Of a stretch of 64,000 nucleotides of DNA, positions 10,431 to 63,444 are shown in pieces (the stretch's first letter is position 1; each line of letters begins with the position of its first letter). Below the pieces are notes generated by a model. It made no database searches. It was not told the origin of the DNA and was given only the letters and a program-made list of their open reading frames with translations. The DNA is from Clavaria fumosa (taxonomy: Eukaryota > Basidiomycota > Agaricomycetes > Agaricales > Clavariaceae), in NCBI GenBank assembly GCA_951802425.1, contig OX637806.1, positions 186,001 to 250,000 of the forward strand, written 5' to 3'. The position numbers and the translations under genes were made by a program.

Positions 10431-12513
10431 ATGGTCTCTGCTTTTATCAAACAACACGAAACCGAAACCAACAAGGACGAGAACGAGGTTGCGCGAGAAA
10501 TGCGCATTTTCGACGCAACGGAACCCAGGATCAACTTGGGGATCCTAGAAGATGCGCTGACCCGTCAAAAGGTTGAACAGGCGCGATGTGCGCATTCCCG
10601 AGAGGAGGTCGCGAAGCGCGAAAATAAGAACAAGGTCGCAAGTCCCAACAAGGCGAGGGACAACGTCGCAGGCCCTAGCGGGTCAATGGAGAACGTTGCG
10701 GGCCCTAGTGGAGTAAGGGGCAAAGTCGCGGGCAGAGCTGACCCGTTGCCCGCGGACTTCCTGAGGGCATGGAAGAAAATTGGGTCAGCGAGGGAGAATA
10801 AGGAATGGAACGAGAGGGAGTGAGAGGTGCGTAGCAGTATTTCTCGTTTCCATTTGTTTTCTAATTGTTGTGTCAAAGGATTGTGACAATTGTGTCGCAA
10901 AGGGCCGACAGTGTGAGCGCAGCACTGCCGGCAAGTGTCATCAGTGCGCAGAAGACCACGGAAAGTGCTCGTGGGTTCAAGAATTCCGTCGATGGCGTGT
11001 CAAAAATGAATACGGATGGGATGACGCGTGAGTCGACGAGGCGCTGAAACGCGCCGAGGGATCGGAAACGATGGGTATGGCGACGCCCAAGGTCGTGAGT
11101 CGAGTGGGGGGAAAGCTCCCCATCCTTCCGGTTCCGGAAACCCCTACGCAAGTAGGGCGCGGAAAACGAACAAGGGCAAGGTCGCGGTCGCCGACGCCAG
11201 GTCCTTCGACGTCGAGGAGGCGAGTCGCGGACGTACCAGAAACAGAGACGGAGGTGGAGGAAGATGCGCTGGTGCGACTGACGAATGTCGTGAAGGTTCG
11301 CGCGGAGAAGGCGCAGATTCTGGCAACCCCGGGAGAGAAGGGGTGGCTGCTTCGGAGGGTGATGGACTGTGAGGAAGAAGTGAAGATCCTTCAAGGGCGG
11401 TTGGATGTAAGGGCGACGAAGGAGCGCTGGCTGGAGGGGAGGTTGAAGAAAAGCGAGGAGGAGGTGAAGCGATTGAAGGCGGTCACGACAACAGTGCGAA
11501 CGAAGGTGGCGACATCGTCACATGAGTCCGGAACGAGAGAGGAGGTGGAAAGGGAACTCGCGACGTTGAGACAGCAGGTCGCGGAGCCCTCGAAGAAGAC
11601 GTTGTGGGTGGAGAAGTCCGACAAGGAAGTGGAGTTGGAAAGAGAGTTGGCGGCGGTAAAACGCGAGTTGGAGGAGGTGCGGAAAAGCACAAAAGGTGAG
11701 TTTTCTTTATGCTTGGAAACTTTTTTACTGAACTTGCGCGTCTGTAGGAAAAAGCAGAGAGGTCCAGGAAGTGCGAGTGGATTCGCTGAAGGCATCCGCA
11801 TCCAGGGGGTTGGATGTGAAGGTCGCGGAGTTGACGGCGCAGAAGGAGGAGGTGGAGAAAGATTTTGAGGCTCTCCATGGGGAGTGGGAAGGTAAGTAAT
11901 TGTTTAGTTTTACCATGTTATAAACTGATTTCCTTTGTTTACTCAGACCAGGAAACCAAGTTGAGGGAGGCGCGCCGTGAGGTGAAGGAATTGGAGAAGG
12001 AAAAAGAGGGTAAGTCAATGGTCGCGAGTATAAAATGACTTAATTCAGCGTTTTATAGTATTAGTCGCGACTGTGGAGAGGATGGAGGAGGAGTTGTCAG
12101 TGTCGAGGGAGCAGTCGCAAGGTAAGTGGTCGCGAGTTTCATATTCTTAATGATAAGCTAACGGTTTGTTTCTAGAATTACGTGACCAATGCGGGAGTAT
12201 GGTTGGTGAGCTCCGCGAGGCTCGCTTTCGAGGACAGCAAGGCCTCGAGACGGTCTTCTTCGCCTACGAAGACCTCTTGATGAAGTCGCTGAAAGAACTC
12301 CCATCGTGGGTGGAAAAGTGGGTGAAGCAGGAGCAGCGTCGCGTGAGGAGGGAGTTGTTGGATATTCCGAGGGTGGACAATTGGGGTTTTGAGTTGAAGG
12401 CTCCCGAGGCTGGGGAGGAGGAGAAGGGGGAAAAGGAAAAAGTCGCGAGTGTGGAAGGCGGGGAAGGAGCAGAAGGGTCGCGAAAGGGGAAGGAAAAAGC
12501 TCGCGACCAGTAG
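10431..12513 (+). pseudogene. Antisense accessory gene, Zn2Cys6 + coiled coil, family 1 copy 1
   Basis: It lies between pol and the 3' LTR, on the strand opposite pol. The start has a strong context (ACCACCATGG). Exon 1 runs to about 10820. The next exon carries Cys in the spacing C-x2-C-x6-C-x7-C-x2-C-x6-C (10882-10968), which fits a fungal Zn(II)2Cys6 cluster. Then come a Pro/Arg-rich linker and a long Glu/Lys/Arg heptad-like region split by introns starting about 11696, 11892, 12009 and 12121, all with GTRAG donors and YAG acceptors. The exon 1/2 junction does not join cleanly in frame with consensus sites. A TGA at 11029-11031 replaces CGA present in the sister copy, so this copy is broken. 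Function is unknown; DNA binding is suggested by the cysteine cluster. Confidence 0.75.
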
Positions 12514-12612
12514 ATAAAAATTTTCTTGTTGTATTTTTATTGCGTATATATGAATTGCTGTGAAGTCCGAAGTGAGAAAGTGAAGAAAAAAAGGAGAAAG
12601 AGGCGAGGAAAT

Positions 12613-15709: not shown

Positions 15710-15710
15710 T

Positions 15711-15722: not shown

Positions 15723-15765
15723 CCCCCTCGCCCCACCACTCAACGCCCGGATAACACAAACTATT

Positions 15766-19824: not shown

Positions 19825-21285
19825 TGTTAGGGCCTGTCCCGTCTCGATAATAGTGTCGGAGATCAACTTGTTGGTGACCTATGCTGGAAACTCGCTAAGA
19901 CCAATCAACTGTTGAGCACAGTCGAGAATGCTCGGTCCCGGAAGGTCGCGAAGACATCTGAGAAGATGTAAGAGCGAAGAAAGACAAGTATAGAGGAGGA
20001 AGACATCGTTGGGAAGGTCGCGAAGTCGGTAAACGAAGCGTAAAGGAGGTAATTGACGAGGAGGGGGGAAATGGGTGATGCTGAGAGGGTCGCGAAGTTG
20101 ACCAACGAAGCGTGAAGAAAGGAATAGATGAGGTGGGAGAAAGTGACAACGTTGAGAAGGTCGCGAGGTCGACCGACGAAGCATAGAGAAGGAAAAAGAC
20201 AAGGTGAAAGAAATAGACAATGTTGGAAGGGTCGCGGTGGTCACGACAGTGTTGAGAAATGTGTCGGTGAAGGCGATGACTTTGCCAACCGACGGGTGAA
20301 CCTGTAGGGTTCCAAGATCAGTACCAAGACAAATGATAGAGAATACTTAGATCGCACAAGTTGTAGGAGCGCAGAGGATGAGTTAGAACAGAGTAGAGTG
20401 TGTCTTGGCGATCTTGTGGTCACCAAGAGAGACAAGACCTATCAATCACGATGGTTCCAAGCTCAAAGGGCATACTAGCCTCAAGCTTAAACCAATGTGC
20501 GTCAATGTCAAGTCTGGAGTACCATAAGTACATGCGAGACCTTATATACATATGTAGAGAGAGTATAACGAAAAAGGGAAAGTACAGAGGTTGCCAGGCG
20601 ACAAGACTATAGTAGTACGGGGTAAGTTTAGTTGTAAAGTGACTGGGCGCATATTCTACTAAGGTCGCGAGGGGTTAGGTATGCATAGGTAAGGTCGCGA
20701 AGATGACCTGTCATGGGTCGCGACCTAGTTAAATAAGTATATACGTTGCTATAACTACGGAGGGATTCTCAGATCATAAGTAATGTAATTATAGACGACT
20801 GAGGAGAAGAAGGGACGCATATTTGAAGTGTTCATACAGCTGACCGTTGGTGGTGCATTTGAGTGTTAAGGTCGCAAGGTCATAAGAGTGATCACGTGGG
20901 TGACGCTAGTGATGCAGGTGACCTACGGGCGGGTAGTCACATGGGTAACGCTGGTAACGTATTGGCGCTGGTAGTGGTAGCGCCGGGGGTGCCGCTCGGC
21001 AAGTCACGTGCTGGTGGAAGTAGACGGGTATCAGTGTGTCGCACGTAGGATTGGTGGATCCGGGCGAAGTATGCACATAGGGTGAAGTAGTAGGAAGTGT
21101 CGCGAGTACAGCATGGTGGTCGCGAGTGTCGTGTGAGCGTGGGGGAGGTTGGAGAGGTTTCCGGAAGGAGATAGCGGGTTTCGGAAGTGGGTAGAGGGGT
21201 ATGCGAGGTGGTAGAGGGTCGTCGGGAGGGCCGTAGATGTTGGTGGAGTCGGCTTGGGTAAAGGAAAAATGAATGGGTCCTGACA
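19825..21285 (-). repeat. Family-1 LTR C (3' LTR of the inner element)
   Basis: 1461 bp, TGTTAGG..CCTGACA on the plus strand. It shares private variants with LTR B, supporting that these two are one pair. I count nine exact TCGCGA sites in it. The polypurine tract is at 21289-21298. Confidence 0.9.
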
Positions 21286-21401
21286 TTACCCCCCCTTCAA
21301 GCCTCGAGCCCTGCGAGAGTGGAGATCACGTGATGATTAGTCAGCGCGATGTTTGTTGATCAGGTCATGACACCCGAAATTTTTCTCTAAGTCCAACCAC
21401 C

Positions 21402-23461
21402 ATGGTCTCCGCTTTCATCAAACAACACGAAACTGAAATCAACAAGGACGAAAACGAGGTCGCACGCGAAATGCGCATTTTCGACGCAACGGAACCCAGG
21501 ATCAACTTGGGGATCCTAGAAGACGCGCTGACCCATCAAAAGGTTGAACAGGCGCGATGTGCGCGTTCCCGAGAGGAGGTCGTGAAGCGCAAAAATAAGA
21601 ACAAGGTCGCGAGTCCCAACAAGGCGAGCGACAACGTCGCAGGCCCTAGCGGGTCAATGGAGAACGTTGCGGGCCCTAGTGGAGTAAGGGGCAAAGTTGC
21701 GGGCGGAGCTGACCCGTTGCCTGTGGACTTCCTGAGGGCATGGAAGAAAATTGGGTCAGCAAGGGAGAATAAGGAATGGAACGAGAGGGAGTGAGAGGTG
21801 CGTAGCAGTATTTCTCGTTTCCATTCGTTTTCTAATTGTTGTGTCAAAGGATTGCGACAATTGTGTCGCAAAGGGCCGACAGTGTGAGCGCAGCACTGCC
21901 GGCAAGTGTCGTCAGTGCGCAGAAGACCATGGAAAGTGCTCGTGGGTTCAAGAATTCCGTCGATGGCGTGTCAAAAACGAATACGGATGGGACGACGTGC
22001 GAGTCGACAAGGCGCTGAAACGCGCCGAGGGTTCGGAAACGATGGGTATGGCGACGCCCAAAGTTGTGAGTCGAGTGGGGAGAAAGCTCCCCATCCTTCT
22101 GGTTCCGGAAACCCCTACGCGAGTAGGGCGTGGAAAACGAACGAGGGCAAGGTCGCGGTCGCCGACACCGGGTCCTTCAACGTTGAGGAGGCGAGTCGCA
22201 GACGTACCAGAAACAGAGACGGAGGTGGAGGAAGACACGCCGGTGCAACTGACGAACGTCGCAAAGGTTCGCGCGGAGAAGGCGTGGATTCTGGCAACCC
22301 CGGGAGAGAAGGGGCGGCTGCTTCGGAAGGTGATGGACTGTGAGGAAGAAGTCAAGATCCTTCAAGGGCGGTTGGATGTGAGGGCGACGAAGGAGCGCTG
22401 GCTGGAGGGGAGGTTGAAGAAAAGCGAGGAGGAGGTGAAGCGATTGAATGAAGGTGGTGACATCGTCACATGAGTCCGGAACGAGAGAGGAGGTGGAAAG
22501 GGAACTTGTGATGTTGAGACAGCAGGTCGCGGAGCTCTCGAAAAAGACGTTGTGGGTGGAGAAGTCCGACAAGGAAGTGGAGTTGGAAAGAGAGTTGGCG
22601 GCGGTAAAACACGAGTTGGAGGAGGCGCGGAAAAGCGCAAAAGGTGAGTTTTCTTTATGCTTGGAAACTTTTTTACTGAACTTGCGTGTCTGTAGGAAAA
22701 AGCAGGGAGGTCCAGGAAGCGCGAGTGGATTCGCTGAAGGCATCCGCATCCAGGGGGTTGGATGTGAAGGTCGCGGAGTTGACGGCGCAGAAGGAGGAGG
22801 TGGAGAAAGATTTTGAGGCTCTCCATGGGGAGTGGGAAGGTAAGTAATTGTTTAGTTTTACCATGTTATAAACTGATTTCCTTTGTTTACTCAGACCAGG
22901 AAACCAAGTTGAGGGAGGCGCGCCGCAAGGTGAAGGAATTGGAGAAGGAAAAAGAGGGTAAGTCAATGGTCACGAGTATAAAATGACTTAATTCAGCGTT
23001 TTATAGTATTAGTCGCGACTGTGGAGAGGATGGAGGAGGAGTTGTCGGTGTCGAGGGAGCAGTTGCAAGGTAAGTGGTTGCAAGTTTTGTATTCTTAACG
23101 ATAAGCTAACGGTTTGTTTCTAGAATTACGTGACCAATGCGGGAGTATGGTTGGTGAGCTCCGCGAGGCTCGCTTTCGAGGACAGCGAGGCCTCGAGACG
23201 GTCTTCTTCGCCTACGAAGACCTCTTGATGAAGTCGCTGAAAGAACTCCCATCGTGGGTGGAAAAGTGGGTGGAGCAGGAGCAGCGTCGCATGAGGAGGG
23301 AGTTGTTGGATATTCTGAGGGTGGACAATTGGGGTTTTGAGTTGAAGGCTCCCGAGGCTGGAGAGGAGGAGAAGGGGGAAAAGGAAAAAGTCACGAGTGT
23401 GGAAGGTGGGGAAGGAGCAGAAGGGTCGCGAAAGGGGAAGGAAAAAGCTTGTGACCAGTAG
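21402..23461 (+). pseudogene. Antisense accessory gene, Zn2Cys6 + coiled coil, family 1 copy 2
   Basis: It has the same layout as the copy at 10431. Exon 1 starts MVSAFIKQHETE; the next exon holds CDNCVAKGRQC and CRQCAEDHGKC (about 21853-21939). A basic linker and Glu/Lys-rich coiled-coil exons follow, ending in KGKEKACDQ. Here the codon that is TGA in copy 1 is intact (GWDDVRVDKALKR). However, a net 23-nt deletion near 22448, relative to copy 1, shifts the frame and ends it after NEGGDIVT. The two copies carry different lesions, so the ancestral gene was probably intact. The 3' end converges on pol with about 100 bp between stop codons. Confidence 0.75.
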
Positions 23462-23560: not shown

Positions 23561-25366
23561 TTATTGAGTTGCGCGAGTTGCGCGAGGTTTTTCTGGGTAG
23601 GTCGCGTGGAAGTCCTGGAGGAGTTCCTTCGATCCGGAAAGTGACTCTATTGGTTCCCAGGTGTCGTCCTCGGGTCCGTAACCTTCCCAACGTACGAGGT
23701 AGAGCACTTTCCTACCCCTCCTTCGAGAATCTAGTATGTCGGCGACTTCGTAATGTTGTTCGCCGTCGACCTCGATAGGGGGCGGGGGTTGCTGTTGTCG
23801 CTGGGGGAAAGCGTCATCGTAGACCTTTTCGAGTAACGAAACATGGAAGACGTCGTGAATTTCTCGCATTGATTTCAGTAACTGGAGACGATATGCGTGA
23901 GTCGAAACTTTCGCGAGTATGGGGAAAGGTCCGGCTCGTTTCGAGTCCAATTTCTTCATCGGTCTCTTCGTTTTCACATTCCTCAAGTCTAACCACACTC
24001 TTGTTCCTTCCTTCCAATCCAGCATAGTCTCTCTCTTCGGGTCCGCAAAGCGCAAGTAGGCCTCGTTCGCGACCTTGAGTTGGTCTCGTAGATGCTGGTG
24101 AAGCGTCCTGAGATCAGTCGCGACCATATGAGCTTTGTGCGCGGGTACGTCGTCAAGAGAAATCATGAGTCTAGGGTGGTATCCCTTGTTCGCGAAGAAC
24201 GGGGAGACACCAGTCACGCTATGAGGGGTGTTATTGTATATGAACTCGGCGAGCGGGAGTTGGTAATTCCAGTCGTCTTGCTGGTAGTTCGTATATATTC
24301 GGATATATTGCTCTAGAACCTGGTTGACTCGTTCTGTTTGTCCGTCAGTCTCGGGGTGGTAAGCTGTGGAGAGATTTGAAGTAATATCCAAAGCTTGGCA
24401 TAACGAAGACCAAAACTTAGAAACAAATAATCTTCCTCTATCTGACACTATATCCGCAGGTAGCCCATGCTTTGAAAAGACGTGGGTGACGAAATGCTGG
24501 GCTAATTCTTTTGTGGTGTCGGTAGTATTGGTAGAGATGAAAATCGCTTGTTTCATAAGTCGACAGACAATGATGAGGATCGAGTCAAAGGTCGCAGAGA
24601 GAGGGAGGGCTTCGATATGGTCCATCGAAATCGAAGACCAAGGTCGCTCGCCTATGGGCAAGGGCTTGAGGAGTCCATAGGGTTTGTGCCGGACAGGTTT
24701 TGCCCTTGCACAGGTGTGACAACCACGGACGTAGACAGTTACGTCCTTTCGGAGTCCTGGCCAGAAAAACAACCTATTTATTAGTTGGGTTGTCTTCCTT
24801 ATACCTGGATGTCCTCGTAGTTTGTGGTCGTGGTTGGAGCATAGGATATCGAATTGGAGAGAGTCGTGGTCGGGGACGTATATTTTGCCATTTCAAAGTA
24901 ATAGTGAACCGTTGGGCGAGAGTGAGAACGCTTTGTCGCGACCTTGTGAAGCACCCTGTGATTTCTTGGAGAAGTAGGAGTCGCGAGGAGCGTGTCGAAT
25001 TCGCGAAATCAGGGCTTCTTCGTTGAGAATGACGGCTGCTCGAAGTAGTTCCGGCGGTATCACGACCTTGTTGTTTTGTGCATTAGTTGCGGGTTGGTCG
25101 GACTTCTTCGGGTAGACGTCGGGTCGTCGCGTGAGGGCATCTGGCTTCGCGCCTAGCTTTCCTGCTCGATAATGAATTACATAGTCGAAACTGGAAAGGT
25201 ACTCTGCCCAGCGGGCTTGTCGACGGCTGAGTTGCTTCGTGGTGGTGAAATAACGTAAGTTATTGTGGTCTGAAAAGACCTGAATTTGGTATCGCGCGCC
25301 TTCGAGGTACGCTCTCCATTGCTTGAACGCATTGTGTATCGCGAGGAGCTCTTTGTCGTAAATGTC
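23561..25366 (-). pseudogene. pol: Family-1 pol: RNase H end, integrase, chromodomain
   Basis: Integrase and chromodomain read on the minus strand in one 403-codon frame (24772-23561): HTCARAK, SMDHIEALP, IVSDRG, QTERVNQ and YLVRWEGYGPEDDTWEP. Upstream, towards 25366, lie the integrase finger and the end of RNase H ([10 protein letters not shown]), interrupted by a stop near 24895. The gene continues on the other side of the fold-back element at 31627-33527. The sequence TCCTGCTCGATAATG (25161-25175) is the empty site for the 14217/19820 insertion. Confidence 0.85.
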
Positions 25367-25373
25367 GTAGTTG
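25367..25373. other. Target duplication GTAGTTG, left copy (right copy 31627-31633)
   Basis: The seven bases flank both ends of the fold-back element. In the uninterrupted sister pol the corresponding codons contain the sequence once (complement of CAACTAC near 19618). Confidence 0.9.
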
Positions 25374-25514
25374 CAGTAGTACTGAATGAAATAATTAACT
25401 AGACACAGCAGTTAGGTATAATTCATAGTGTACTCTTTGCAGCTACAGCTGGACAAGGAATCCTTATGGTCAGTCAACTTGTCAAGTTAACTTGTCAAAG
25501 GTAGTACATGGGGG

Positions 25515-31480: not shown

Positions 31481-31626
31481 CTAGTCCCCCATGTACTACC
31501 TTTGACAAGTTAACTTGACAAGTTGACTGACCATAAGGATTCCTTGTCCAGCTGTAGCTGCAAAGAGTACACTATGAATTATACCTAACTGCTGTGTCTA
31601 GTTAATTATTTCATTCAGTACTACTG

Positions 31627-33532: not shown

Positions 33533-34257
33533 TGTCACAGTCCTAACAAGGTTAGCGGCGAAGGGGTTAGCGGAGCGGAGCGGAGATATTCTATCGGAGT
33601 CCGGTCGGAGTCCGATATCGGAGAAACGGAGAAGTAAACATGAGGAAGAGAGATTTATGGGACTGCGGCCTCAACGTATGTGTTGTGCCACTGCGTATAT
33701 ACGTGTCCCTATTTATCAAACAAGAACAATACCTAAGGGAGGATCAGAACACAAGTCAAAACTCCAAAGTTGATCGGAGTCCATCGGAGTTGGTCGGAGT
33801 TGATCGGATGACGTGGAGAACGTCGAGGACAATGAGGACGAAAGCTCAGAGATGTTTTTAGGATCAAGAGACATTAATATTCGAACTGAGGAGCAGGGAG
33901 ATACAGGTGGAAACTTATACTGCAAGGACAGAGTATAGGAGTAATGTGAAACAATGTACTTATCAAATTACTAGGAGAGTTTCACCACTTGTGCCTGTGC
34001 AATTTTCTTGGAACAAAGAAACGACAACAAAAGCGACTCCCATGGGTCAAGGGTATCCTCTCAGTAGTGAACAGAATGAGGGGATGGAGGGAGAAGGTTC
34101 TAGAACAAAGTCCGAATGGTCCGAAGGTCGGCGGAGTAAAGTCCGATGAAGGTGCGGAGCGGGGCGTACGGAGTTACGGCGGAGCGGATCGGAGTTGGTA
34201 CGGAGCTCGGAGTCTGGGGCGGGGATAGTGCTTATGCAAGCGGATGGGGTCGTAACA
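33533..34257 (-). repeat. Family-2 3' LTR
   Basis: 725 bp. I count at least 17 CGGAG pentamers, all on the plus strand. It is nearly identical to the 5' LTR, differing mainly by extra GCGGA units near 33555 and a few transitions. This indicates a young insertion relative to family 1. Confidence 0.9.
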
Positions 34258-39000: not shown

Positions 39001-39866
39001 ACATCTGGGAAGTCCCTGTACTCCTCCGGAACGGAGAGGAGGTCCTGGGGGGTGGTGTCGGGGATGTTGAACGAAGCGGAGGCCGCGCGCGCAGACTCGC
39101 TCGACAACGTCATGCCAAAGACTTGGGACCCGCGAAGTCCACAAGCCGTGGCGAATGCGGCAGCATTCACAAAAGAAACTTTGGGTGTCTCCTGGAGAGA
39201 CGGAGTAGACGGAAAGGTCAGAGACTGGGTCAAAGACAGAGACAGAGGCAGAGATGGAGACGGAGTCCGGGTCTGGTTCGGAGTCGCTGCAGACGACATT
39301 TGAACCGGAGCACACGGAGCGGAGACAGACAGAGGGACAGAGGTGGACAGAGGGACAGAGTGGAGAGTGCTGGCCGGTGCACCCTCTGGATCAGATTTCG
39401 GAGTTTTCTCCTCTTTCGTAGATGGTCTGGGCTTTATCTGGCCAGTAATCCAGTCAACCAGCGGGTTGTTTTGGAACAGCCAATTCATTCCCAAGATCAC
39501 ATCACTAGAGGGATCAAGATCGGTAACTACACACAAGACGTCAGTCGGATCCATGGCGGAGAGCCGAATGGATAACCAGACTGCTTCGGTAACCCATACG
39601 GAGGTGGTCCCGTTAATAAAAACGACCTCCCAAGGGGTCACCGGAGTTTTCGGAAGACGGAAGCGAGAAGCAAATTTGGCGTCAATGAAACAAAGTTCAG
39701 CGCCGGAGTCTATCATAGCTTTAAACGGAGACGAAATAGAAGGAGAGGAGGCAAGAAGGGAAAGAGAACGATGAAAGGAAAGGGTATCGAGTATCGGTTC
39801 CGTACGATCGGAGTCGGAGCAGCCGGAGAGTCGTACTATGCTCTCTGGGCTGCTCAATCTTTTTTT
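36036..39866 (-). pseudogene. pol: Family-2 pol: protease to chromodomain
   Basis: Minus strand, in the -1 frame relative to gag. The protease has the MIDSGAELCFID motif near 39700. RT (38861-37713) has MPFRLTNAPATFQ and a mutated catalytic box, VVYLNDILIYSED instead of YLDD. RNase H follows. Integrase has HARHDHPLAGHFGRTK, CTTCGRAK, MDFIEQLPESSG, VTSDRGSEF and QTERTNQ. The chromodomain reads YLVRWSGYEGTDEETSWLP. Stops near 38956, 37711, 36487 and 36368 are TGA in contexts consistent with former CGA. The polymerase is inactive on two counts. Confidence 0.85.
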
Positions 39867-41029
39867 GGCATGGAGTCATCTCCCTCGGAGGTGATTCGTG
39901 CAGCGCTGGCACTGGCCCGTGAGGTCCGCTTACGACACTCGTTGGCTTTGTGGCCCGCTATTCCACAGAAGAGGCAGAGATTATTATCGAAACGCCGTTG
40001 GCGTTCCTCTGGAGTCAGTTTTCCATCCTGACCCAGATGGGCCTTCTTTGTGTCGCTGGAGCTACCGGAGTTAGCGGAGCCCTCAGCAACCTTTGGAACG
40101 GAGTTCCCAGAAGTCGAACCGGAGTTCACCGGACGCTTATCCGAGGGTTTCTCGGACTTGGTATTAGCGCCGGAAGTGCTCGGGGACTTGGGAATATCCG
40201 AAGTCTCCTTTTTTATGGTGTTGTTAGGCGTTGGAGCTTTAACGGAGTCCCAAGAGATCTCCTGCTGACGAGCCCAATAATGGCCATCGATCGCACTGGC
40301 TTGCTCGCAGAGTCTGCGGAGCGTGTCCGCGCGGTTAACGCGGGCCAGTTCGTCTTTGATGCGGCTAGCAAGTCCTTTGTAGAACTGCCGCTGCAACGCG
40401 TACTCGTCCCAATGGACAATGGACGCGAATCTGTTGAACGAAATGGTATATTTTGTCAACTTCTGGTCCTCGCGCATCTGGAGGCGTTCGAGTTTGAACT
40501 CCGCCTCATGGATCGCGTCGTAAGGACCAAAGTTCTCTGTAAGTTGAGCAACAAACATCTTATAGTTCGAAAGAACCGGATGGTCTTCACCATCCAGGAT
40601 CATTGGTTCGAACCATTCCAAGGCGAAGCCTCAGAGAAAGGAAAGGACATAGCGTACCTTATGAGAATCGGACTTGAACGCTCTTGGGCGATCAAGGAAG
40701 TTTAACTGGCATTGGACCAAGAAGCTTTTCAACTTCTTAGCATCCGAGCCATCGAATGTGTCAGGGTCGCGTGGTTTTACCGTATCCGGGCGCTTGTTGG
40801 CGTTGATAATTTGCTGAAGAAGGCATGCCGGAGTTGGTTCGCGCTCTGCTCAAGGTGTCAGAGGTTCATTTAGCTTGTCGTTGTCGTCAGTGACTGTGGG
40901 ATCTGACTCTTCGTCATGGTCCGGAGGTCCGGACACACTTGGAGTCGGAGTATTGTCAGCCGGTTCTGGAATGTCGACGTCGTCAGCAACAGGAGGTGGA
41001 GGTCGAGCACCAGAACGTGTAGTAGGCAT
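39854..41029 (-). pseudogene. gag: Family-2 gag
   Basis: Starts MPTTRSGARPPPPV. A stop lies near 40860, followed by a capsid-like domain (FDGSDAKKLKSFLVQCQLNF) and another stop near 40630. A preserved stretch 40621-39854 contains ALEWFEPMILD and a zinc knuckle CLFCGIAGHKANEC. It ends at TGA 39856-39854, right after the A-rich slippery run at 39866-39860. Confidence 0.8.
39860..39866 (-). promoter_or_regulatory. -1 frameshift heptamer A AAA AAA, family 2
   Basis: In the gag frame the codons read CCA AAA AAA GAT TGA. Pol is open in the -1 frame from the same place (...RLSSPESIV). Seven adenines in phase X XXY YYZ are a classical -1 slippery site. I did not find a convincing downstream stem. 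Confidence 0.5.
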
Positions 41030-41056
41030 TGTTAAGTTTGTATATATGAGGTTTGA

Positions 41057-41067
41057 AGTTCGAATAT
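41057..41067 (-). promoter_or_regulatory. Self-complementary primer binding site, family 2
   Basis: On the element's sense strand ATATTCGAACT lies two bases from the 5' LTR. Its complement AGTTCGAATAT occurs inside the LTR (sense strand of 41409-41419). It stands about 32 bp after a TATAAG box (complement at 41446-41451), where the transcript should start. Confidence 0.65.
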
Positions 41068-41069
41068 AC

Positions 41070-45288: not shown

Positions 45289-45293
45289 CTTAC

Positions 45294-49680: not shown

Positions 49681-49689
49681 TGTAGACTG

Positions 49690-53711: not shown

Positions 53712-53713
53712 GT

Positions 53714-53724
53714 ATTATCAGACT
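53714..53724 (+). promoter_or_regulatory. Self-complementary primer binding site, family 3
   Basis: ATTATCAGACT, two bases after the 5' LTR, is the exact complement of AGTCTGATAAT at 53433-53443 in the LTR. No tRNA-like TGG is present. This gives a third family with Tf1-like self-priming. Confidence 0.7.
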
Positions 53725-53742
53725 AACCACTCTGCGATCATA

Positions 53743-54875
53743 ATGTCTGAACCTCCCTGACGCAGTGGCCACTTGCGCCCAAGCGCCAAGCCGACGACCC
53801 CTGGTGGGTCCGACCTCGGAGAACCAATTAATCCGACCCCTCCTGGCGAGGGGGACGAACCAACCGTACCCGCTCCACGCGAAACCCGATCCCGATCTCC
53901 TCCGGCTGAACAGCCCGACTCCCCGTTATCCGAACCCGACCCCGAAGCCCCGAACCTCGCGGACACGATCCGCGCCTTGGCCACATCCACCAAGGAACGA
54001 GGCTCCCCGTCTTCCCGCGTCAAGGAACCGGAACCGTTCAACGGTTCCAACTCCAAGAAACTCCGTAGTTTCTTGGTTCAATGCGAATTGAACTTCTGAG
54101 ACCGCCCGAAGACTTTCAGCAAGGACTCGGTAAAGATAAATTTTGCCATCTCCTTCCTGCAGGGAACCGCTCTTGAGTGGTTCGAACCCGCTCTCCTAGG
54201 CGAAGCCCCGGACGCCGACTGGATTTCTGACTGGAATCTATTCGTGCAGGAACTCCGGGATAACTTCGGACTGCACGATCCTGTCGGAGATGCTGAGGCC
54301 GAACTCGACCGCCTCCACATGAAGGACTCCCAGCGGATCACGACGTACAACATCGAGTTTAACCGGATAGCTGCGCGGCTCCGGTGGGACGAAGCCGCAC
54401 TCCGGCACAACTATTACCACAGACTCCCGAACCACCTCAAGGATGAGATTTCCTGAGTCGGGAAACCGACTTCCCTCCCCGTCCTGCGCAAACTCTGCCA
54501 GGACATTGACGCGTGATACTGGGAACGTCAAGGCGAACGTTCCCGTGACGCACCCACCAAGCAAATAACTCCGGACAATCGTCCGGAGGAAACAAACCCG
54601 CCAACAACTCCGGAGCGGCATCGAATGCCTCCGGATCCGCACGAAAGACCGATCCCCCGAAGGATAATAAGATTGGCAAAGACGGAAAGCTAACTCCGGA
54701 GGAACGGAAACGCCGCTTCGACAACAACCTCTGCCTCATTTGCGGAGGAACCGGACATGTTGCGAAGGACTGCCCGAAGTCCCGGAACATGCAGGGCAAG
54801 AAAGCCCGAACCGTCACAACCTCCGACACAGTTCCGGAGGTTAAGGCTGCAGCTGCTCGGGCAAAAAACTCCTGA
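53743..54875 (+). pseudogene. gag: Family-3 gag
   Basis: Starts MSEPP, then TGA at codon 6, followed by a Pro/Glu-rich region. A capsid-like segment follows (VKEPEPFNGSNSKKLRSFLV...ALEWFEPALLG...YYHRLPNHLKDEI) and a CCHC knuckle CLICGGTGHVAKDC. Stops near 53758, 54098, 54454 and 54513 are all TGA at positions where CGA would restore Arg. Apart from these the frame is open to its natural stop at 54873-54875. Confidence 0.85.
54863..54869 (+). promoter_or_regulatory. -1 frameshift heptamer A AAA AAC, family 3
   Basis: Gag codons are GCA AAA AAC TCC TGA. The pol frame (-1) is open from here onward (KKLLSSPSKS...). A AAA AAC is one of the best-known retroviral slippery sites. A gag stop follows two codons later. 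No clear pseudoknot was found by eye. Confidence 0.65.
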
Positions 54876-57800
54876 GCAGCCCTTCGAAGTCCGCACTACC
54901 GGAGGACCGCGCCGCCCCAGCCAGTGCACATTACGAGTTCCGCCTTGGTGCATCTGCCGTTTCCCCTTCGTCCGACTCCTTGTATATAACCCTGTCCACT
55001 CCGAATATAGATCGTTCTCCGTATTTCCGGACCCTGGTTGATTCCGGGTCGTCGCATTGTTTCATAAGTCCTGAGTTCGTCAAGAAACACAAACTCCGGA
55101 CAACTCCGATTTCCCCCATGTCACTCCGCCTTTTCGATGGTTCCTCTACGGACATCGTCAAATCCACACTCACTCTCCCTGTCCAATTCCCTACCGGAGA
55201 ACTTTTCGATATCGAATTCCTGGTAGCCCGAATGGATCCCGCCTGCTCCGCTGTCCTCGGATATAACTGGCTCACCCGCTACAACCCGTTGGTTGACTGG
55301 GTAAGAGGCAGTATCGAATTCCGGACACCGAAGTATTCCCGAACATCAAATCCGACCTCCGACACCCAAACCCCGACTCCGAAAGTGGGAACTACCGTCC
55401 TCACTCCCCCTCCGAAATCACCACCACGGCACCCGGAGATTCGTTTTGTCAATGCAGCTGAATTTTCCAAGATCTCCGAGTCAACGGGATCTCGGACTTT
55501 CATGCTGCACCACTTTGGTGACGAAACATCTGTCCGCTCCATTGCGACCGAACCGGTGGACCTGTCCTCCGTCCCGGAGGAATATCACGACTTCGCTGAT
55601 GTGTTCAGCAAGACGAAAGCGGACACCCTAGCTCCGCATCGACCGTACGACCTCCGGATTAATCTGGAAGAAGGTAAAACTCCGCCCCATGGGCCGATAT
55701 ATTCCCTCTCCCAGACGGAGCTCCGTACACTGCGGGATTTCCTCGATGAACATCTCCGCATCGGATTTATCCGCCCGACTAGCTCTTCCCATGGAGCTCC
55801 TGTTTTATTCGTCCGGAAAAAGGATGGAAGTCTCCGGCTATGCGTGGACTTCCGAGCCCTTAACCGGATCACTTGGAAAGACCGATATCCGATCCCCCTG
55901 ACCCGCGATCTGCTGGACGTAGCCGGAACTGCGAAGGTTTACACCAAGATCGATCTCCGGCACGCCTACCATCTGGTCCGGATCGCGGAAGGCAATGAAT
56001 GGAAAACCGCCTTCCGGACCCGGTATGGTTCGTTCGAATGGTGCGTTATGCCCTTCGGACTTACTAACGCCCCTGCGGCATTTCAACACTTTGTAAATGA
56101 TGTGTTTTCCGACCTCCTGGACAAGTTTATGATCGTCTACCTGGACGACATCCTGGTATACTCCGACAACCTGGAGTCGCACGTACAGCATGTCCGAGAA
56201 GTATTCCGGCGCCTACGCGCCAACGGACTTTTCGCTCACGCAGGAAAATGCTTCTTCCATACTGAACGAGTTGAGTACCTAGGTTTCCTGCTCTCTCCAG
56301 AAGGACTCGCGATGGACCCGGCGAAGGTGAAAGCCATTACGGAATGGCCGGAGCCCCGGAAAGTGAAGGATGTGCAGTCCTTCCTCGGATTCGCCAACTT
56401 CTACCAGAGATTCGTCTTCCAGTACTCCGACATCGTCGTCCCCCTTACTCGACTCACGCGGAAGTCCTCCATCTGGAACTTCAATCCCGACTGCCAGGAA
56501 GCCTTCGACACCCTGAAGACGGCTTTTACCTCGGCCCCGATACTGGCGAACTTCGTCCCCGACGTCCCTATAATTGTGGAAACAGACGCTTCGGACTACG
56601 CAGTCGCCACGATACTCTCCGTGGAATCGCCACCCGGAGAAATTCATCCGGTCGCTTTTCACTCCCGGACACTCCACGACGCGGAGTTGAACTACGACAC
56701 CCACGACAAGGAACTCCTGGCCATATTCGAGGCATTCGGTGAGTGGCGTCACTACCTCGAAGGTTCCGCTATTCCGGTCCACGTCATCACGGACCATAAA
56801 AACCTGGAATACTTCGGAACTACCCGGACTTTGTCTCGGAGACAAGCCCGGTGGTCGGAATTCCTCTCCAGTTTCAACATGGTTATCCGATTCCGCCCCG
56901 GAAAACTTGGAACAAAACCCGACACCCTCACCCGACGATGGGACGTTTACCCCAAAGAGGGAGATAGTGGCTATGCCAGCGTAAATCCGCAAAACATCCG
57001 ACCGATTTTCAACTCCGAACAGCTGGCCACCTCCCTCCGAGCAACTTCCCTCGAAGGACTCGTACTCCGATCCGTCCTTGTCATGGATGAGGAAAAACTC
57101 CGAACCGACATCCGGAACTCGCTCCGTGATGATCCGGTCGCAAGCACACGCCTGGACAAAGTCCTCTCTGGCACTGGAGATAATCCCCGGTGGACTGTAG
57201 ATGCGTCCGGCTTCCTGCGACTGGACGACCGGATATACGTTCCGGACTCCAATGACCTCCGACTCCGTGTCCTACTGTATAGGCACGACCACCCGATTTC
57301 CGGACACTTCGGATAAAACAAGACTCTGGATTTGATCCGAAGGGAGTATATGTGGCCCGGACTTCGCAGTTTTGTCTCGGAGTATTGCAACTCCTGTACT
57401 AACTGCGGCAGATTGAAGACCCGAAGGCACCGGCCTTACGGTCTCCTCCACCAACTCCCGGTCCTGGAATTACCATGGAATTCAATTTCCATGGACTTTA
57501 TCAAACACCTCCCACAATCCGACAGATTTAATTCCATCCTTGTTGTCGTCAACCGCTTTTCCAAGCAAGGAATCTTTACTCCGACCTACGATACGGTTAC
57601 ATCGACGGACCTCGCCGGACTTTTCGTCCAGCATGTTTTCTCCAAGCACGGAGTTCCCTCGCACGTAACCTCCGATCGCGGACCGGAGTTTGTTTCTCAC
57701 TTTTTCTGCTCCCTCGGAAAAGCCCTCGACATGACTCTCCATTTCACGTCCGGACATCACCCGGAAGCAGATGGTCAAACCGAACGGTTGAACCAGACAC

Positions 57801-58570
57801 TGGAGCAGTATCTCCGGTCTTACTGCAATTATCAGCAAGATGATTGGTCCGAGCTCCTCCCGCTCGCGGAATTTGCGTATAACAACGCTCCGAGCAAGAC
57901 GACCAGAATTTCACCGTTCTTCGCTAACAAAGGTTACCATCCGAACATCTCCGTCCAAGTCGACCAGGACATGACTTCCTCCCGTGCCCGGACTTATGTT
58001 GCTGACCTGGAAACACTCCACCAGATACTCCGGCAACAAATCCTTGCCGCGCAGCAGCGGTATCAAAAGTCCGCTGACCGGCATCGAATTCCGGCCCCGG
58101 ATTTCCACGTCGGAAACAAAGTTTTTGTCAAGGCGGAATTCTTCCGGACCACCCGACCGTCCAAAAAGCTCAGCGAGAAAATGCTCGGACCTTACGAGAT
58201 CATCGCTCAAGCTGGATGAAGCTCCTTTACTCTCCAACTCCCGGAAACCCTCCACTCCGTACATCCGGTATTCCACGTTTCAATGCTGGAATTGGCGACA
58301 GCCAACACAATTCCGAACCGGATCCAGCCCCCTCCGGAACCCATAGTTGTCGATGGAGAACTGGAATTCGAGATCACGGAGATTTTGGATTCTAAGTACG
58401 ACAACCGGAGGAAGACTTGTAAGCTACTCTACTTGGTCCAGTGGACGGGTTACGAAGGAACCGACGAAGAAACTTCCTGGCTGCTCGCTACGGAGCTTGA
58501 GCGCGCACCGGATCTCGTCGCGGACTTCCATTCCACGTACCCTGACAAACCCGGACCTCTCGGAGCTTAG
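54864..58570 (+). pseudogene. pol: Family-3 pol: protease, RT, RNase H, integrase, chromodomain
   Basis: Protease TLVDSGSSHCFISPE. RT with FVRKKDGSLRLCVDFRALN, MPFGLTNAPAAFQ and an intact YLDDILVYSDN. RNase H begins VETDASDYAVATILS. Integrase has RHDHPISGHFG, CTNCGRLK, MDFIKHLPQ, VTSDRGPEF and QTERLNQ. The chromodomain reads YLVQWTGYEGTDEETSWLL. The frame is interrupted only twice, by TAA at 57314-57316 and TGA near 58218, so this is the best-preserved polymerase in the window. Active-site residues of protease, RT and integrase core are present. Confidence 0.88.
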
Positions 58571-58655
58571 GCTTCACTCGGACTTAGTTCACACGAAGTC
58601 CGATCAACGGAAATCCGATTCGCAAAAAAAACAAAAAAAATATATACGAAATAAT

Positions 58656-59893
58656 TTACACCGGACCTAAGTCCGGTTCCCCCTCCGCATCCTCCGTCTC
58701 CATCTCCTGCTCCGCTCCTTCTCCCACCTCCGGCCGGACATCCATCAACGAAGAACGACGGGAGCGCGCGATCTCCTGCTCCACCGCCCGGGCCATCTCC
58801 GGATCTCGTCGCTCCAGCACCCTCCGCAGGATCCGGTTATCCTGCGCAAGCTGATCCCTCTCCGCGATCATCTTGTTCATGTTGAGGTGCTCGACAAAGT
58901 CCGGGACGAGCTGTCGGAGTTCAGTCCCGAACTCCGCAGGTGCCCCGGAAATGACTCACCTGCCCGATCACTGCCTCCAACCTCCTCGTCATCTTCTCCA
59001 GCCCCTTCACCATCGAGTTCCGGTGCATCCGGACTTCATGGCTCTTCTCCGCGTTGGCCCGGAGGAACCAGTTCGTCGACTGGAGATCCAGCTCCGGCTC
59101 GAAATCCTCGGCTCGGAGCTTCTTCGCCGGCCTTGCCTCCACCTCCGGCTCGCCCTCCGCCTCCATCTCTGACCTCCGGTCCAAGTCCGACTCTACCATG
59201 GCATCGGACTTCGTCCCCCGACGCGCGACCCACTTTCCCTTGTCTTTTCCTTTTCCCTTGCCCTTCGCCTTCCCTGGCCACATGCACCCGACCCACTTCT
59301 CCCGGCACTCGTCACAACTCCGAGTTCTCGCCGGCCCCGTCCATTTGCATTCCTGGCCCGGACTTTAGCGCGAACTCCGGCGGAGACAGGAGAACCTACC
59401 AGTTTTTTCTGGGAGCAACGCTCGCACGTTACTCCGGCCGAGGTCCCCTGGGCCTCTGCGATCTCCGCTGCGTGCTTCCTCCGCGCCTCCTCCTCCTTCT
59501 GCTCCCGCACCGCTTTCTCCGCCGCCTCCTGGAGGTTTACTGACTCCTCCACGCTGGCCACCAGCTTCGTTGTGGCCCGCGCTGCCTCCAACTCCTTCCT
59601 CCGTTCCCGCGCTCTTTTCCCCGCCTCTTCCTCCTTCCTTCTCGTCTCCGCCTCCTCCTCCTCCGTTCCCGCGCTCTTTTCCCCGCCTCTTCCTCCTTCC
59701 TTCTCGTCTCCGCCTCCTCCTCCTTTCGTTTCCGCTCCGCCTCCTCTTCTCTCCGCTTCATCTCCGCCTCCTCCTCTTGTCTCCTCCGCTCCGCCGCCTC
59801 CTTCTCCCTCCGCACCTTCGCTGCCTGCAACGCTTCCATCTCCTCCTGGAGTTTTCGGAGTTGGACTTCGTAGTTGGTGTCTTCTTCAGCCAT
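58656..59893 (-). pseudogene. Antisense accessory gene, Zn2Cys6 + coiled coil, family 3
   Basis: Strand opposite pol, 86 bp from the pol stop. It starts MAEEDTNYEVQLRKLQEEME with a long Glu/Arg/Lys coiled-coil-like region. Exon 1 ends CERCSQKKL; a 47-nt intron (59399-59353, GTAGGT..CCAG) brings CERC and CKW together with CDECREKWVGC, giving C-x2-C-x6-C-x10-C-x2-C-x6-C (59426-59284). A second intron near 58960-58912 (GTGAGT..ACAG) leads to the last exon, ending EGEPDLGPV. A 62-bp tandem duplication (about 59603-59664 and 59665-59726) shifts the frame in the coiled coil, so this copy is broken although the cysteine exon is clean. Confidence 0.75.
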
Positions 59894-60090
59894 GCCTGGT
59901 GGTGGTTCAGGTCTAAGGAGAGGGGACCGGTGGTGGATTGATGCCCCGGATTATATACCCAGTCACGGATTTCGAACTCCGACGAATCTCCGATCCCATT
60001 TCCGTCCTCGGATCGCGATCGCCTTGATCCGAACGCCCCAATCCGGTCCAGGGGTGGTAACGGATCTAGGGCCTCGAGGGCTCGGCCCTG

Positions 60091-60102
60091 AGAGGGAGAT
60101 AC
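60091..60102 (+). promoter_or_regulatory. Polypurine tract, family 3
   Basis: AGAGGGAGATAC abuts the 3' LTR. The family-2 tract has the similar order AAGAGGGGGATAC on its sense strand. Confidence 0.75.
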
Positions 60103-60849
60103 TGTCACGCCTGTGCCAACCGGAGTATTCTCCGGCCTTCTCCGGCCTTCTCCGGCGGTCTCCGGACCCCTGATCGCAACTCTGGGCTCTCGGACCTATG
60201 TCCAGAGCACCGGACTTTACTTGCGCGACGTAGCACAGGATCAGGAAGTGTGCCTGAAGGGCCACCAACTGATGTCCGCACTAGTTGCTGTTGCCTCGGG
60301 CAACCAGGAACTGGTCCTGCCCCGGACCCGTCGCCCGGACAATTTGATGGACTCCCGGAAACGCCTGTACATCATAGTTAGTAGTTTAACCTTTGTCCCG
60401 ATCAGATTCTGTCTCCGTCTTGTAGTCCCGTAGTTTAGTTTATTTCCTGACTCCCGGACATTACTCCGTAGCTACGAACTGATTCCGTAGTCGTACCGGA
60501 GTTATCTCCGTTGCTAGCATTGCCCCGGACTTTTGTATAAGTACTCGTAGATTACGGCCTTAGTCTAGCCAGTCTGATAATCAACCCCGCCTACTCGCAC
60601 TCTATTCCGCACTGCCTGAAACCCGTCTCCCGACCTCTCCTGAAATCCGAGACACTGATCCGCAGAGGGCGTCGTTTCAATACGTTCGCCAAGTCTCGTC
60701 CGAACCTAAGTCCAACTCCATCCAAACTCCGGTTTGCTCCGCCGCACCCGGACCTTGTTACTCTCGCCCGGACTTTATTGTTCCCCACCAGACTTTGTTA
60801 TTTCCGCCCGGACTTTACTCCGCCCGACCCCCGCGACATAGACGTAACA
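60103..60849 (+). repeat. Family-3 3' LTR
   Basis: TGTCACGCC..CGTAACA, 747 bp, almost identical to the 5' LTR; the differences are mostly transitions. It is followed by the duplication TTGGC. Confidence 0.9.
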
Positions 60850-60854
60850 TTGGC

Positions 60855-61868
60855 TGCAAATAGATGTTCGCGGCCGGGTTCTTCAGGGGGTCTTATTACA
60901 CAACAGGTACACTAGACAGAACCTTGGAGGATGTAGAGGTTGAGTGCAAAAGGTTCAGAGAGTGAAAATATATGTTGTCCGGAGTATCCGGTATCGGATC
61001 CGATAGAGTCCGATGTTTGGATCGAAGGTTCGAGGGGCCAGTGACAACGAAGGGTGAGCTTGCTAAAAATCACAGCACAATGTGGGCATTCAAAAAGCTG
61101 GATTACCATAGAACCTGGTACGTACTTAAGTACATTTTCGTAAGTACAGCAAATCCGGTTCTACGGAAGTTTCCGGAAGCTACAGAAGGTAATGCGGTAT
61201 CGTGTGCAAGGTCATATAGAGGTCATGTATCATAAAAGAGTTATGCGGTTCAGAGGAATGAAGTGTCCGATGATCGGTGTACATCTGGACTGCTCGTAAA
61301 ATGAAGGAGAGTGAGACTGGTACAGCAAAGGGGTACTAGGAACAATGGACAAGGCACTGCAAAGGGTTTGAAATGTTTCAATGATCGGATGGTTGAAAGG
61401 GATCACAATATGAAATTTACAGCATGTATATGAAATAGAGGAATGGGAATGGAATAGTGAGTATGTCGAGCACTGACCATGCTGGAGTGATGAAATAGAG
61501 GGGTGTAGGCGGTGTGTGTGACCTGTGGGCTGTGATCTTCACGGGGAATCGGAGACCGGAGAGTCCAATGTCGGATAAGTATCAGTTGTTATCGGACGGT
61601 GTCGGATTGTTATCAGATCATATCGGACGCGATTGCCTTGGATCCTGAAATATCCGGATGGTCGGTATCTGTCATGTTTCTATGTTTAAACCGCATATTA
61701 TCCTTACATTCTCCCGGGGGCTGAAAATGCAACCGCCCTTGGTTGCGACCAAACCAGGCCAAATAATCGTTTGTTGATCGTGAAGTACGCGTTGTGTGGG
61801 TGCACATAGGTCCAAACACGCACTTGTGTCTTCTCCAATAACAGCAACACATCATCCATCTAAAAAAA
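60855..61868. other. LTR remainder and leader of the fourth family's antisense gene
   Basis: To 61708 this is probably the rest of the split LTR. 61709-61868 lies between its polypurine tract and the antisense start codon. Many TCGGA/TCCGA motifs are present, especially 60985-61020 and 61545-61630. No gene is seen. Confidence 0.45.
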
Positions 61869-63444
61869 ATGGAAAACTTCGACACTCTCATTTTCTGGAA
61901 CGTGGCTCAGGCGATGACGGAGGCATGGGCCATGGTGCCGGGTGAGGAATTGCCGGAGCGGGGGCAGGACAGTGAGTACGCGGAGTGGGTGCAGATATAT
62001 GGGGGTGATGCGGTACGTGATGTTTCTTTCTTTCTTTTTCACTTTGCACTGACAAGTTTTCAGGATGATTTCCTTGCCGGCTACGTTGCCGCAATCGACG
62101 ATGACGTGGAGGTGGACGAAGGACTCGTCCTCGTCGCGAGAAGGCTCAAAAAGTGGCGAAGGCTCCATGGGGATGAATGAACCGCCGAGCAGACGAGGAA
62201 ACAGGAGGAGGCCAAAGCCGAATAGGAACGTGCGGACGAGGAGAGGGCGGCCGCCGAGAGGGCTGCAGCGGAGACAGAGGCGAGAAGGGTAGAGGCGGCG
62301 AGGGCTGCCGAGAAGAGGGCGCGTTGGATGGTCGGGAGCGAGGACGATGGAGAGGGGGGAGAGGAGGTTGCAGCAGCAGCCGCAACAGCTACGCTGGTCG
62401 CTGACGCAGCAGCCGTAACCACGGCCGTGACCGATCCGATGGTCATTGTGGAGCCGGGCGCGAGCGAAGAAACGGATCTGACGGCGGGTGCCGTGAGCAA
62501 GGCGGGGGCCGACGAGGGCGATCAAGACGGCGTCCGGACGATATGGGGGACCGATGGGGTAACGCCCGTCGGTGTCATGAAGGCGGGGGCGACCAGTGCG
62601 AGGATCGGGGGGCGCCGTGTGGTGGTTGAGGTGCCCCCTGTTCCGGAGCATCGGGTCGGCGCGCGGATGACTGCGACGCCTCACCATATGTCGGGGTGGG
62701 GCGATATTGGAAAACGGGCAACGGAGGGACGAGGGCGAGGGCGGAGGGTCGAAGTGGGGGCGGACATCGAGCTCCGGGCTGCGTGACAGCCTGGGGACAA
62801 GGTAAGTCGTCAATTGGAGTTTTGATTCTTAGATTTCTGATCTGGTGAGTAGGAGCACGACCCGGCCTGTGAGGCATGTGCCTGGAAAAGGCATTTGTGC
62901 TACAGAGTGGAAGGAGTGGCATGCCGGTGGTGCCGGAACTATAAGGTGTCGTGCAGTCTCTCGGCTGTATGAGGTAAGTAATATTCTTTTTTTTATTTCT
63001 TGATGAACCAATCTGAAAGGTGTGTTTCAGGAGTGAAAGCTGAGAAGGTCGCGGTGTCCGGTGACGGAGGTAAGTCAAGAGAGTACCGGATCTGTATCGG
63101 CTAATGTAGCGGAGTAGGTCCAAAGGCGGCGGAAGCGACCGCGAGCAAAAGACCGAGGCGAGGTGCAACGCGGGCGCCAGTCCATGAGGAGACAACACCG
63201 GAGGAGGAAGAGGAGGATGAAATTGAGGACGACGAGAGCGTGGAGTTGGTGGAGCCGCCAGCGAAGAGGAGGAAGGCGGAGGCGGGTCCCAGCCGAAAGG
63301 GAAAGGAGCGGGAGACGGAGCCAGGAGTGTCCGGAAGGGAGGCGCTGGAGAGAGCGCTGGAGATGATGGAGAGGGGGGCGGATCAGGTGAAGGCTGGGGC
63401 GGAGCTTCTCCGGATGCTCCTTCTTGGCGGGTCATCTGCTAAAT
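61869..63444 (+). pseudogene. Antisense accessory gene, Zn2Cys6 type, family 4
   Basis: Starts MENFDTLIFWNVAQAMTEAW; an intron at about 62013-62063 is followed by DDFLAGYVAAIDDDVEV. TGA and TAG interrupt an Ala/Glu/Arg-rich region near 62180-62225. A later exon carries CEACAWKRHLC and CRWCRNYKVSC (62868-62954) with spacing C-x2-C-x6-C-x7-C-x2-C-x6-C. Further GTAAGT introns follow near 62970 and 63070, and the last exon has acidic and basic stretches (EEEEEDEIEDDE; PPAKRRK) ending GGSSAK. It converges on the minus-strand pol, whose stop is 210 bp away. The same position and orientation as in families 1-3 support the assignment. Confidence 0.7.

Follow-up and report, generated by a model that had tools for sequence, protein, structure and literature searches.

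Antisense genes with a zinc-cluster-like cysteine motif in Ty3/gypsy retrotransposons of Clavaria fumosa

Do retrotransposons of the basidiomycete Clavaria fumosa carry a protein gene of their own on the strand opposite pol, and if so, what would its product do? The question is raised by a 64-kb stretch of its 48.76-Mb genome (G000:C13:186001-250000, here called the window), in which a preliminary description had listed five loci where a gene with six regularly spaced cysteines lies opposite the pol of a long terminal repeat (LTR) element. Our results show that this antisense accessory gene is a genuine protein gene, kept by purifying selection in several Ty3/gypsy lineages. Furthermore, structural modelling suggests that its cysteine-rich part folds as a Zn2Cys6-like cluster.

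Linkage of the antisense gene to pol

All five loci are present, with the cysteine spacing reported for them. The recognisable pol sequences of the window fall into four Ty3/gypsy families (fam1, fam3, fam4 and fam5), as had been proposed, the first two loci being copies of fam1 that are mutually 94% identical in self-alignment. Protease, reverse transcriptase (RT) or integrase domains were found by Pfam on the strand opposite the gene in fam1, fam3 and fam4; the fam5 pol starts at the window end on the minus strand and continues beyond it, and its RT and integrase motifs were read by eye. Element orientation was fixed by LTRs, target site duplications (TSDs) and purine tracts for fam3 (GTGCG, element span 33533-41789), fam4 (TTGGC, 52965-60849) and fam1 (CTTAC), while the fam5 element extends past the right window end and no LTR was found for it. 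The gene lies opposite pol in all four families, and its position between pol and the 3′ LTR is demonstrated for fam1, fam3 and fam4, where 115 bp (both fam1 copies), 229 bp and 209 bp, respectively, separate its ATG from the inner boundary of that LTR. The fam1 pol has a chromodomain (PF00385, E 1.3e-14); none was seen in the pieces scanned for fam3, fam4 and fam5, the scan not covering every pol tail.

The only open copy in the window is that of fam3 (stop-to-stop frame of 341 aa). Read by eye, both fam1 copies are interrupted by one or more in-frame stops (copy 2 in exon 1), the fam5 copy has at least two in exon 2, and the exon 1 frame of fam4 is broken at a tandem duplication. Hence the word 'encodes', used in the preliminary description for all five loci, fits fam3 and is too strong for the other window copies.

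To place these copies in a genome-wide context, the C. fumosa genome was searched with the cysteine domains (E up to 0.01) and fragments of one locus were merged. This yielded at least 149 loci for fam1, at least 136 for fam3, 54 for fam4 and 141 for fam5, that is, at least 478 distinct loci with decayed pieces counted. Linkage was scored as an antisense gene within 6 kb downstream of a pol match; misses may be relatives beyond the matches listed. Second fragments were removed beforehand from the gene rows (1 of 150 for fam1, 14 of 150 for fam3 and 6 of 60 for fam4) and from the pol rows (2 of 97 for the fam1 query and 6 of 150 for the fam5 query, for which at least 150 genome matches were listed), all 103 fam3-query rows being kept. 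Among the listed pol matches, an antisense gene was found downstream in 67 of 95 cases with the fam1 query, 85 of 103 with fam3 and 117 of 144 with fam5. Sense-oriented downstream genes numbered 2, 2 and 9, upstream genes 0, 4 and 2, and 26, 12 and 16 matches had no gene within 6 kb. Random placement (200 draws each, on the fam1 and fam3 pol lists with the gene lists of fam1, fam3 and fam4) gave means of only 2.1 and 2.3 against the 67 and 85 observed, with a maximum of 7.

In the fam3/fam4 group and in the fam5 expansion, almost every pol with a long frame that was tested has the gene beside it. Among fam3-query pols with a frame of at least 1000 aa (34 rows merged to 33 loci, 8 of them with a stop in the match), the antisense gene was found beside 32 of 33, 20 being fam3-like and 12 fam4-like with one pol unlinked, and beside 24 of the 25 free of stops in the match. 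A near-identical fam5 subfamily (40 listed rows, pol frames of 1113-1368 aa) had the gene in 38 rows. These roughly 40 copies show about 82% identity each to the query and in most cases have the same 1287-aa pol frame; they apparently represent a recent expansion. The term aORF-3R denotes a frame on the opposite strand between pol and the 3′ LTR that is present in all or most copies. The genes described here have that position in the window copies of fam1, fam3 and fam4, and that prevalence in the above counts for long-framed fam3-query pols, the fam5 subfamily and listed fam1-query pols. Genome-wide, antisense position is relative to pol, LTRs having been mapped in the window for fam1, fam3 and fam4 and elsewhere only for fam3.

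Codon constraint and introns on the antisense strand

The cysteines are retained across loci in fam1 (30/30, with 29/30 in one column), fam3 (27/27, 3 of 30 loci having been left out for indels) and fam5 (30/30), TGC and TGT interchanging. Selection was assessed by re-placing the substitutions at random, with base type and CpG context kept, in 500 draws. In the cysteine block, the fraction of nonsynonymous plus stop changes was 0.347 for fam1 (0.745 expected), 0.509 for fam3 (0.708 expected) and 0.352 for fam5 (0.746 expected), and in no family was any of the 500 draws as low. Since the loci had been retrieved through the cysteine domain itself, the test was repeated on parts of the gene outside the queries. 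Observed fractions were again below expectation in the N-terminal (0.555 versus 0.715, 30 loci) and C-terminal (0.541 versus 0.693, 27 loci) parts of fam3, in exon 1 of fam1 (0.592 versus 0.766, 12 of 30 loci), and in exon 1 (0.543 versus 0.787, 20 loci) and the downstream exon (0.544 versus 0.764, 28 loci) of fam5. The fam1 LTR, serving as a control (23 loci), showed no constraint, and the 3′ end of the fam5 pol (17 loci) showed its strongest constraint in a sense-strand frame, as expected. For fam3, the ratio of nonsynonymous to synonymous rates (dN/dS) was 0.45 (pairwise NG86; 26 frames of at least 250 aa from 30 loci). The preliminary description had named two outcomes that would speak against an accessory gene, namely that most full-length copies lack the frame or that the cysteines are unconstrained. 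Neither was observed, given the near-constant linkage to long-framed fam3-query pols, the retained cysteines and the codon constraint inside and outside their block.

Other reading frames lay above expectation, except the sense-strand mirror frame, which shares third positions with the gene and was likewise low. It is in principle conceivable that the antisense frames are mirror by-products of a sense coding sequence, as the sense frames are long (341 aa opposite fam3), also show reduced change and, in fam3, score slightly lower than the gene frame itself. We nevertheless find this explanation barely credible, since the antisense frame is the more constrained of the two in exon 1 of fam1 and in both exon 1 and the downstream exon of fam5, and since in fam1 and fam5 it is the antisense strand that shows introns with GT, a branch-like site and AG. 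The interchange of TGC and TGT was also considered as an argument against the mirror frame and was dropped, because third positions are common to both frames.

The fam1 intron is in phase 0 and lies immediately 5′ of the cysteine exon; read by eye, it is 52 nt long in both copies of the window. In 29 of 30 loci it has a word resembling a donor, a branch site similar to CTAAT, and AG, the automated test giving unreliable lengths because it takes the last donor-like word. In fam5 the cysteine exon (about 41 aa) is flanked by two introns, with strict signals in 27 of 30 loci upstream and 30 of 30 downstream; two of the three upstream misses differ just before the donor and one has no donor. A copy of the fam5 subfamily (L094) has the identical exon/intron layout. 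Intron positions differ between families: an intron apparently lies inside the cysteine cluster in fam4, and there is none there in fam3. Sense-strand introns are lost once spliced RNA is reverse-transcribed, whereas antisense introns survive. Their conservation here argues for splicing of an antisense mRNA. Linkage, introns and codon tests together led us to reject chance or by-product frames.

The predicted protein and its possible role

Fungal binuclear zinc clusters follow the rule C-x2-C-x6-C-x5..12-C-x2-C-x6..8-C, hold two zinc ions through the six cysteines, bind DNA and fold into two short helices, one per C-x2-C. The six-cysteine spacing of PF00172 is found in all four families, with x7 in fam1 and fam5 and x10 in fam3 and fam4 (in fam4 across the inferred intron). 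Scores stay below the Pfam gathering threshold of 21 bits (10.5-18.6 bits where bits are given; best E among 20 members 0.00046), and the window genes are absent from the 16 Zn2Cys6 Pfam matches of the genome. A 62-aa model gave 31 Foldseek matches in the PDB, the first 21 of which are all Zn2Cys6 proteins, albeit as weak matches, and it superposes on GAL4, LAC9 and Pho7 at 1.9-2.0 Å over about 31 residues. A profile search of the PDB returned RING proteins as best matches (E 0.48) and LEU3 at E 0.96, and a single-sequence search gave one chance match (E 6). The earlier statement that this spacing defines the fungal binuclear zinc cluster goes too far: spacing and modelled fold agree with such a cluster, but the Pfam scores obtained all lie below the curated cut-off. 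The modelled protein consists of an N-terminal module, the six-cysteine cluster and long charged helices, the fam3 model having long confident helices on both sides of the cluster.

One ancestral gene or several separate captures could account for the presence of the gene in these families. The alignment of the families joins only around the cysteines, and the compared fam3 and fam4 pieces show no clear sequence relation beyond a few residues there. In 52 linked fam3-type pairs, pol shares 88% identity or more with the query; the identity of the gene in these pairs is 85% or higher in 23, 62% or lower in 21 and intermediate in 8. Four elements illustrate the contrast between the gene and its surroundings: C11:492163-495631 (pol 94%, gene 56%, U3 and leader 90% identical), C2:1074522-1077980 (91%, 55% and 92%), C6:3309157-3312481 (91%, 52% and 94%) and C5:1419760-1423329 (90%, 52% and 88%). 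In fam1 (loci L003-L032), 21 of 29 copies have less than 45% nucleotide identity to the window copy over the 500 bp that follow the cysteine window, which is itself 72-81% identical; in 18 of these 21, identity returns to 60% or more in a more distant window. Judged from these identities, the gene body (in fam1 mainly outside the cysteine cluster) is either replaced or diverging far faster than its neighbours, and is a hot spot of divergence or exchange. This argues against a simple co-evolution of gene and U3. Indeed, no co-variation of gene type with the LTR was seen, the four divergent-gene elements above keeping U3 and leader 88-94% identical (best 40 of 396 candidates scored). In a search with the whole LTR, the 40 of 524 candidates that were scored all had at least 96% identity.

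What might such a protein do? We consider it most likely, with a probability of roughly 0.5, that the protein enters the nucleus, binds DNA as a dimer and regulates the family of elements that carries it. Transcription of its gene would start within the U3 end of the 3′ LTR or next to it. The U3 would then work bidirectionally, driving the antisense gene from the 3′ LTR and gag-pol from the 5′ LTR. Bound to LTRs of its family, or to other non-coding parts of these elements, the protein would set element transcription, by activation or relief of silencing, copy-number restraint being the less likely direction. The antisense layout would spare the introns from loss at each reverse transcription and would place the regulator beside its presumed target. 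Differences between copies are 28-50% CpG transitions, falling at 14% of sites, and decay largely through such transitions fits a target silenced by methylation. By analogy, an anti-silencing role like that of VANC, an element-encoded protein discussed below, is an attractive possibility; a protein of that type recognises motifs in non-coding parts of the element that encodes it and strips their methylation. As a candidate for the bound LTR motif, CGG sites were enriched in the fam3 and fam4 LTRs and not in that of fam1, with the fam3 pol control also enriched; this mixed outcome led us to drop the candidate.

One result limits how widely the gene is shared. Among the best 150 of 1542 integrase candidates, 120 lack a gene of the four families within 6 kb and 20 have one downstream in antisense orientation, meaning that the gene is confined to some gypsy lineages, or is elsewhere too diverged or unlisted. 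Many gypsy copies of this genome have no detectable relative of the four gene families. The preliminary description thus went too far in stating that the LTR elements of this genome share the gene; an accessory gene under selection, antisense between pol and the 3′ LTR in several gypsy families, is what stands.

The protein could also act on nucleic acid in another way, as an RNA-binding export or packaging factor, or as an integrase partner that chooses insertion sites. Given the cysteine pattern and the basic residues, either RNA or DNA could be the ligand, and a chromodomain is present in the fam1 pol, none having been seen in the pieces scanned for the other families. There is also a precedent in C. 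elegans, where the LTR element Cer1 has an accessory protein for export, CERV (PMC10309623). On the other hand, the closest folds to the model are DNA-binding Zn2Cys6 factors and no RNA-binding family was recognised in Pfam scans of the cysteine domain, so we regard such a role as unlikely, though worth keeping in mind. Rather less plausible to us is that the gene restrains its element, either through the protein or through an antisense transcript acting via double-stranded RNA, a role of antisense frames discussed in a passage of PMC7264820. Convergent pol and antisense genes would indeed yield overlapping transcripts. A transcript acting alone, however, predicts no codon constraint, and the constraint is strong; furthermore, a self-restraining gene should be easily lost, whereas nearly all rows of the fam5 expansion (38 of 40) retain it. 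The capture of host transcription factor genes by chance, to be carried as passengers, appears very improbable. The host genome does have Zn2Cys6 genes (the 16 Pfam matches), and gene types differ between near-identical elements as though swapped in, but passengers would hardly occupy one and the same position and orientation in all four families, be under purifying selection and stand beside 32 of 33 long-framed pols.

A wider and more speculative view of the regulator can be envisaged, which we hold doubtful as a whole. The genes would form a large, fast-diversifying family of anti-silencing or trans-activating factors, exchanged as cassettes between near-identical elements. They would amount to hundreds of selfish DNA-binding loci (the at least 478 counted above, decayed ones included), perhaps serving the host as transcription factors or wrongly annotated as such, and would be a fungal counterpart of VANC and of the retroviral protein HBZ.

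Surrounding features and known systems

The features of the window are collected in Table 1. The fam1 composite (8855-45288) resembles one insertion, with the outer TSD CTTAC, plus an extra inverted unit. The joints of this unit lie at 14221/14222 and 19824/19825, where the tips of its LTRs abut a site within pol (25166-25170) with duplicated CTCGA flanks. The structure looks like the trace of a cDNA circle that had integrated into itself in inverted form and afterwards recombined with a copy already in place. Within the fam1 LTR, 71-bp tandem repeats (9043-9266; 2-3 copies, 76-78% alike) form a possible regulatory array. A 6.25-kb palindromic insert within pol (25374-31626), with identical ends CAGTAGTACTG and a 7-bp target duplication (GTAGTTG), is a fold-back type element; it contains long 33-bp repeat arrays with frames of 476-817 aa, two of which were scanned and had no clear domain.

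Table 1. Antisense genes and retrotransposon features of the window (x7 and x10, spacing between the third and fourth cysteines)
Feature	Position	Strand	Details and basis
fam1 3′ LTR of outer composite element, start TGTTAGGG	8855..10318	-	Self-alignment; TSD CTTAC at 8850-8854 and 45289-45293
fam1 antisense gene, copy 1	10431..12513	+	Exon 1 10431-10826, intron 10827-10878, Cys exon, coiled-coil-like frames; Cys motif 10882-10968 (x7); exon limits by eye, 3′ end from preliminary description
fam1 3′ LTR, copy 2	19825..21289	-	Self-alignment, boundaries
fam1 antisense gene, copy 2	21402..23461	+	Exon 1 21402-21797, intron 21798-21849, Cys exon open to 22473; Cys motif 21853-21939 (x7); exon limits by eye, 3′ end from preliminary description
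fam1 pol, 3′ part	23561..25411	-	23564-24892 with integrase H2C2, rve, SH3_Tf2-1 and chromodomain (Pfam)
fam3 3′ LTR	33533..34257	-	Partner 41070-41789, 97.5% identical; TSD GTGCG
fam3 antisense gene, one open exon	34486..35481	+	331 aa from ATG; Cys motif 34819-34914 (x10)
fam3 gag-pol	36486..40630	-	Gag, aspartyl protease, RT, RNase H, integrase (Pfam)
fam4 pol	54845..58219	+	Protease, RT, RNase H, integrase (Pfam)
fam4 antisense gene	58656..59893	-	ATG 59893; likely phase-0 intron 59399-59353 between Cys 2 and Cys 3; GTGAGT intron near 58950; Cys motif 59426-59284 (x10), split by intron; by eye
fam4 3′ LTR	60102..60849	+	Partner 52965-53711, 96.8% identical; TSD TTGGC; purine tract immediately before
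fam5 antisense gene	61869..63444	+	Exon 1 61869-62012, intron 62013-62063; Cys exon 62853-62973; Cys motif 62868-62954 (x7); exon limits by eye
fam5 Cys-exon borders	62802-62852; from 62974	+	TAG-ending intron before, GTAAGT intron after; by eye
fam5 pol, 3′ end	63657..64000	-	Continues past window; RT and integrase motifs by eye

In these genes, the encoded domain points to a function for an antisense gene of LTR elements, the introns can be spliced only from the antisense transcript, and copies are numerous enough in this one genome for selection and the exchange of modules to be measured. If the protein does regulate its own LTR, it would be a transcription or anti-silencing factor borne by a retrotransposon. 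Counts of zinc-cluster genes in fungi may also contain genes that belong to retrotransposons.

The preliminary description was not aware of any account of such a gene. Among the open-licence papers listed, which leave out most subscription papers, none was recognised as describing an antisense gene of the zinc-cluster kind, and the main text of a survey of fungal LTR elements (PMC3248453) contains neither the word antisense nor the word zinc. Antisense genes at this site, on the other hand, are already known from plants and from one fungus. In plant gypsy elements, antisense frames between pol and the 3′ LTR include maize Grande gene23, rice RIRE2, Retand TRP28 and bean PvRetro13 (PMC7264820, PMC11963269). 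According to the relevant passages of these two papers, they resemble the Clavaria genes in position, orientation and presence in most copies, some being nuclear or predicted to bind DNA, and they differ in their domains (TRP28, SMC), those passages reporting no zinc clusters; the word 'intron' is absent from PMC11963269. The fungal case is brtn (Zhao et al. 2011), an extra antisense gene in Boty-like LTR elements of Botrytis cinerea, for which the citing passages mention no zinc cluster (PMC7264820, PMC8365987, PMC4227169).

Two further systems offer parallels of role rather than of descent. HBZ of HTLV-1, in the passages that describe it, is a nuclear regulator encoded by an antisense gene of a retroelement, with its antisense promoter in the 3′ LTR. 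It is a bZIP protein of a human retrovirus instead of a zinc cluster, and no homology is claimed. VANC likewise belongs to a protein family different from the zinc cluster. Encoded by the VANDAL transposons of Arabidopsis, which are DNA transposons, VANC proteins act on transposable elements in a sequence-specific manner and have evolved new target spectra, according to PMC5735166; the Clavaria proteins are also element-encoded. Finally, the fungal Zn2Cys6 factors (GAL4, PPR1, HAP1, LEU3; PF00172) share with the window genes the six-cysteine spacing, the modelled fold and an adjacent long helix, whereas the window genes fall below the profile cut-off and are encoded antisense within retrotransposons.

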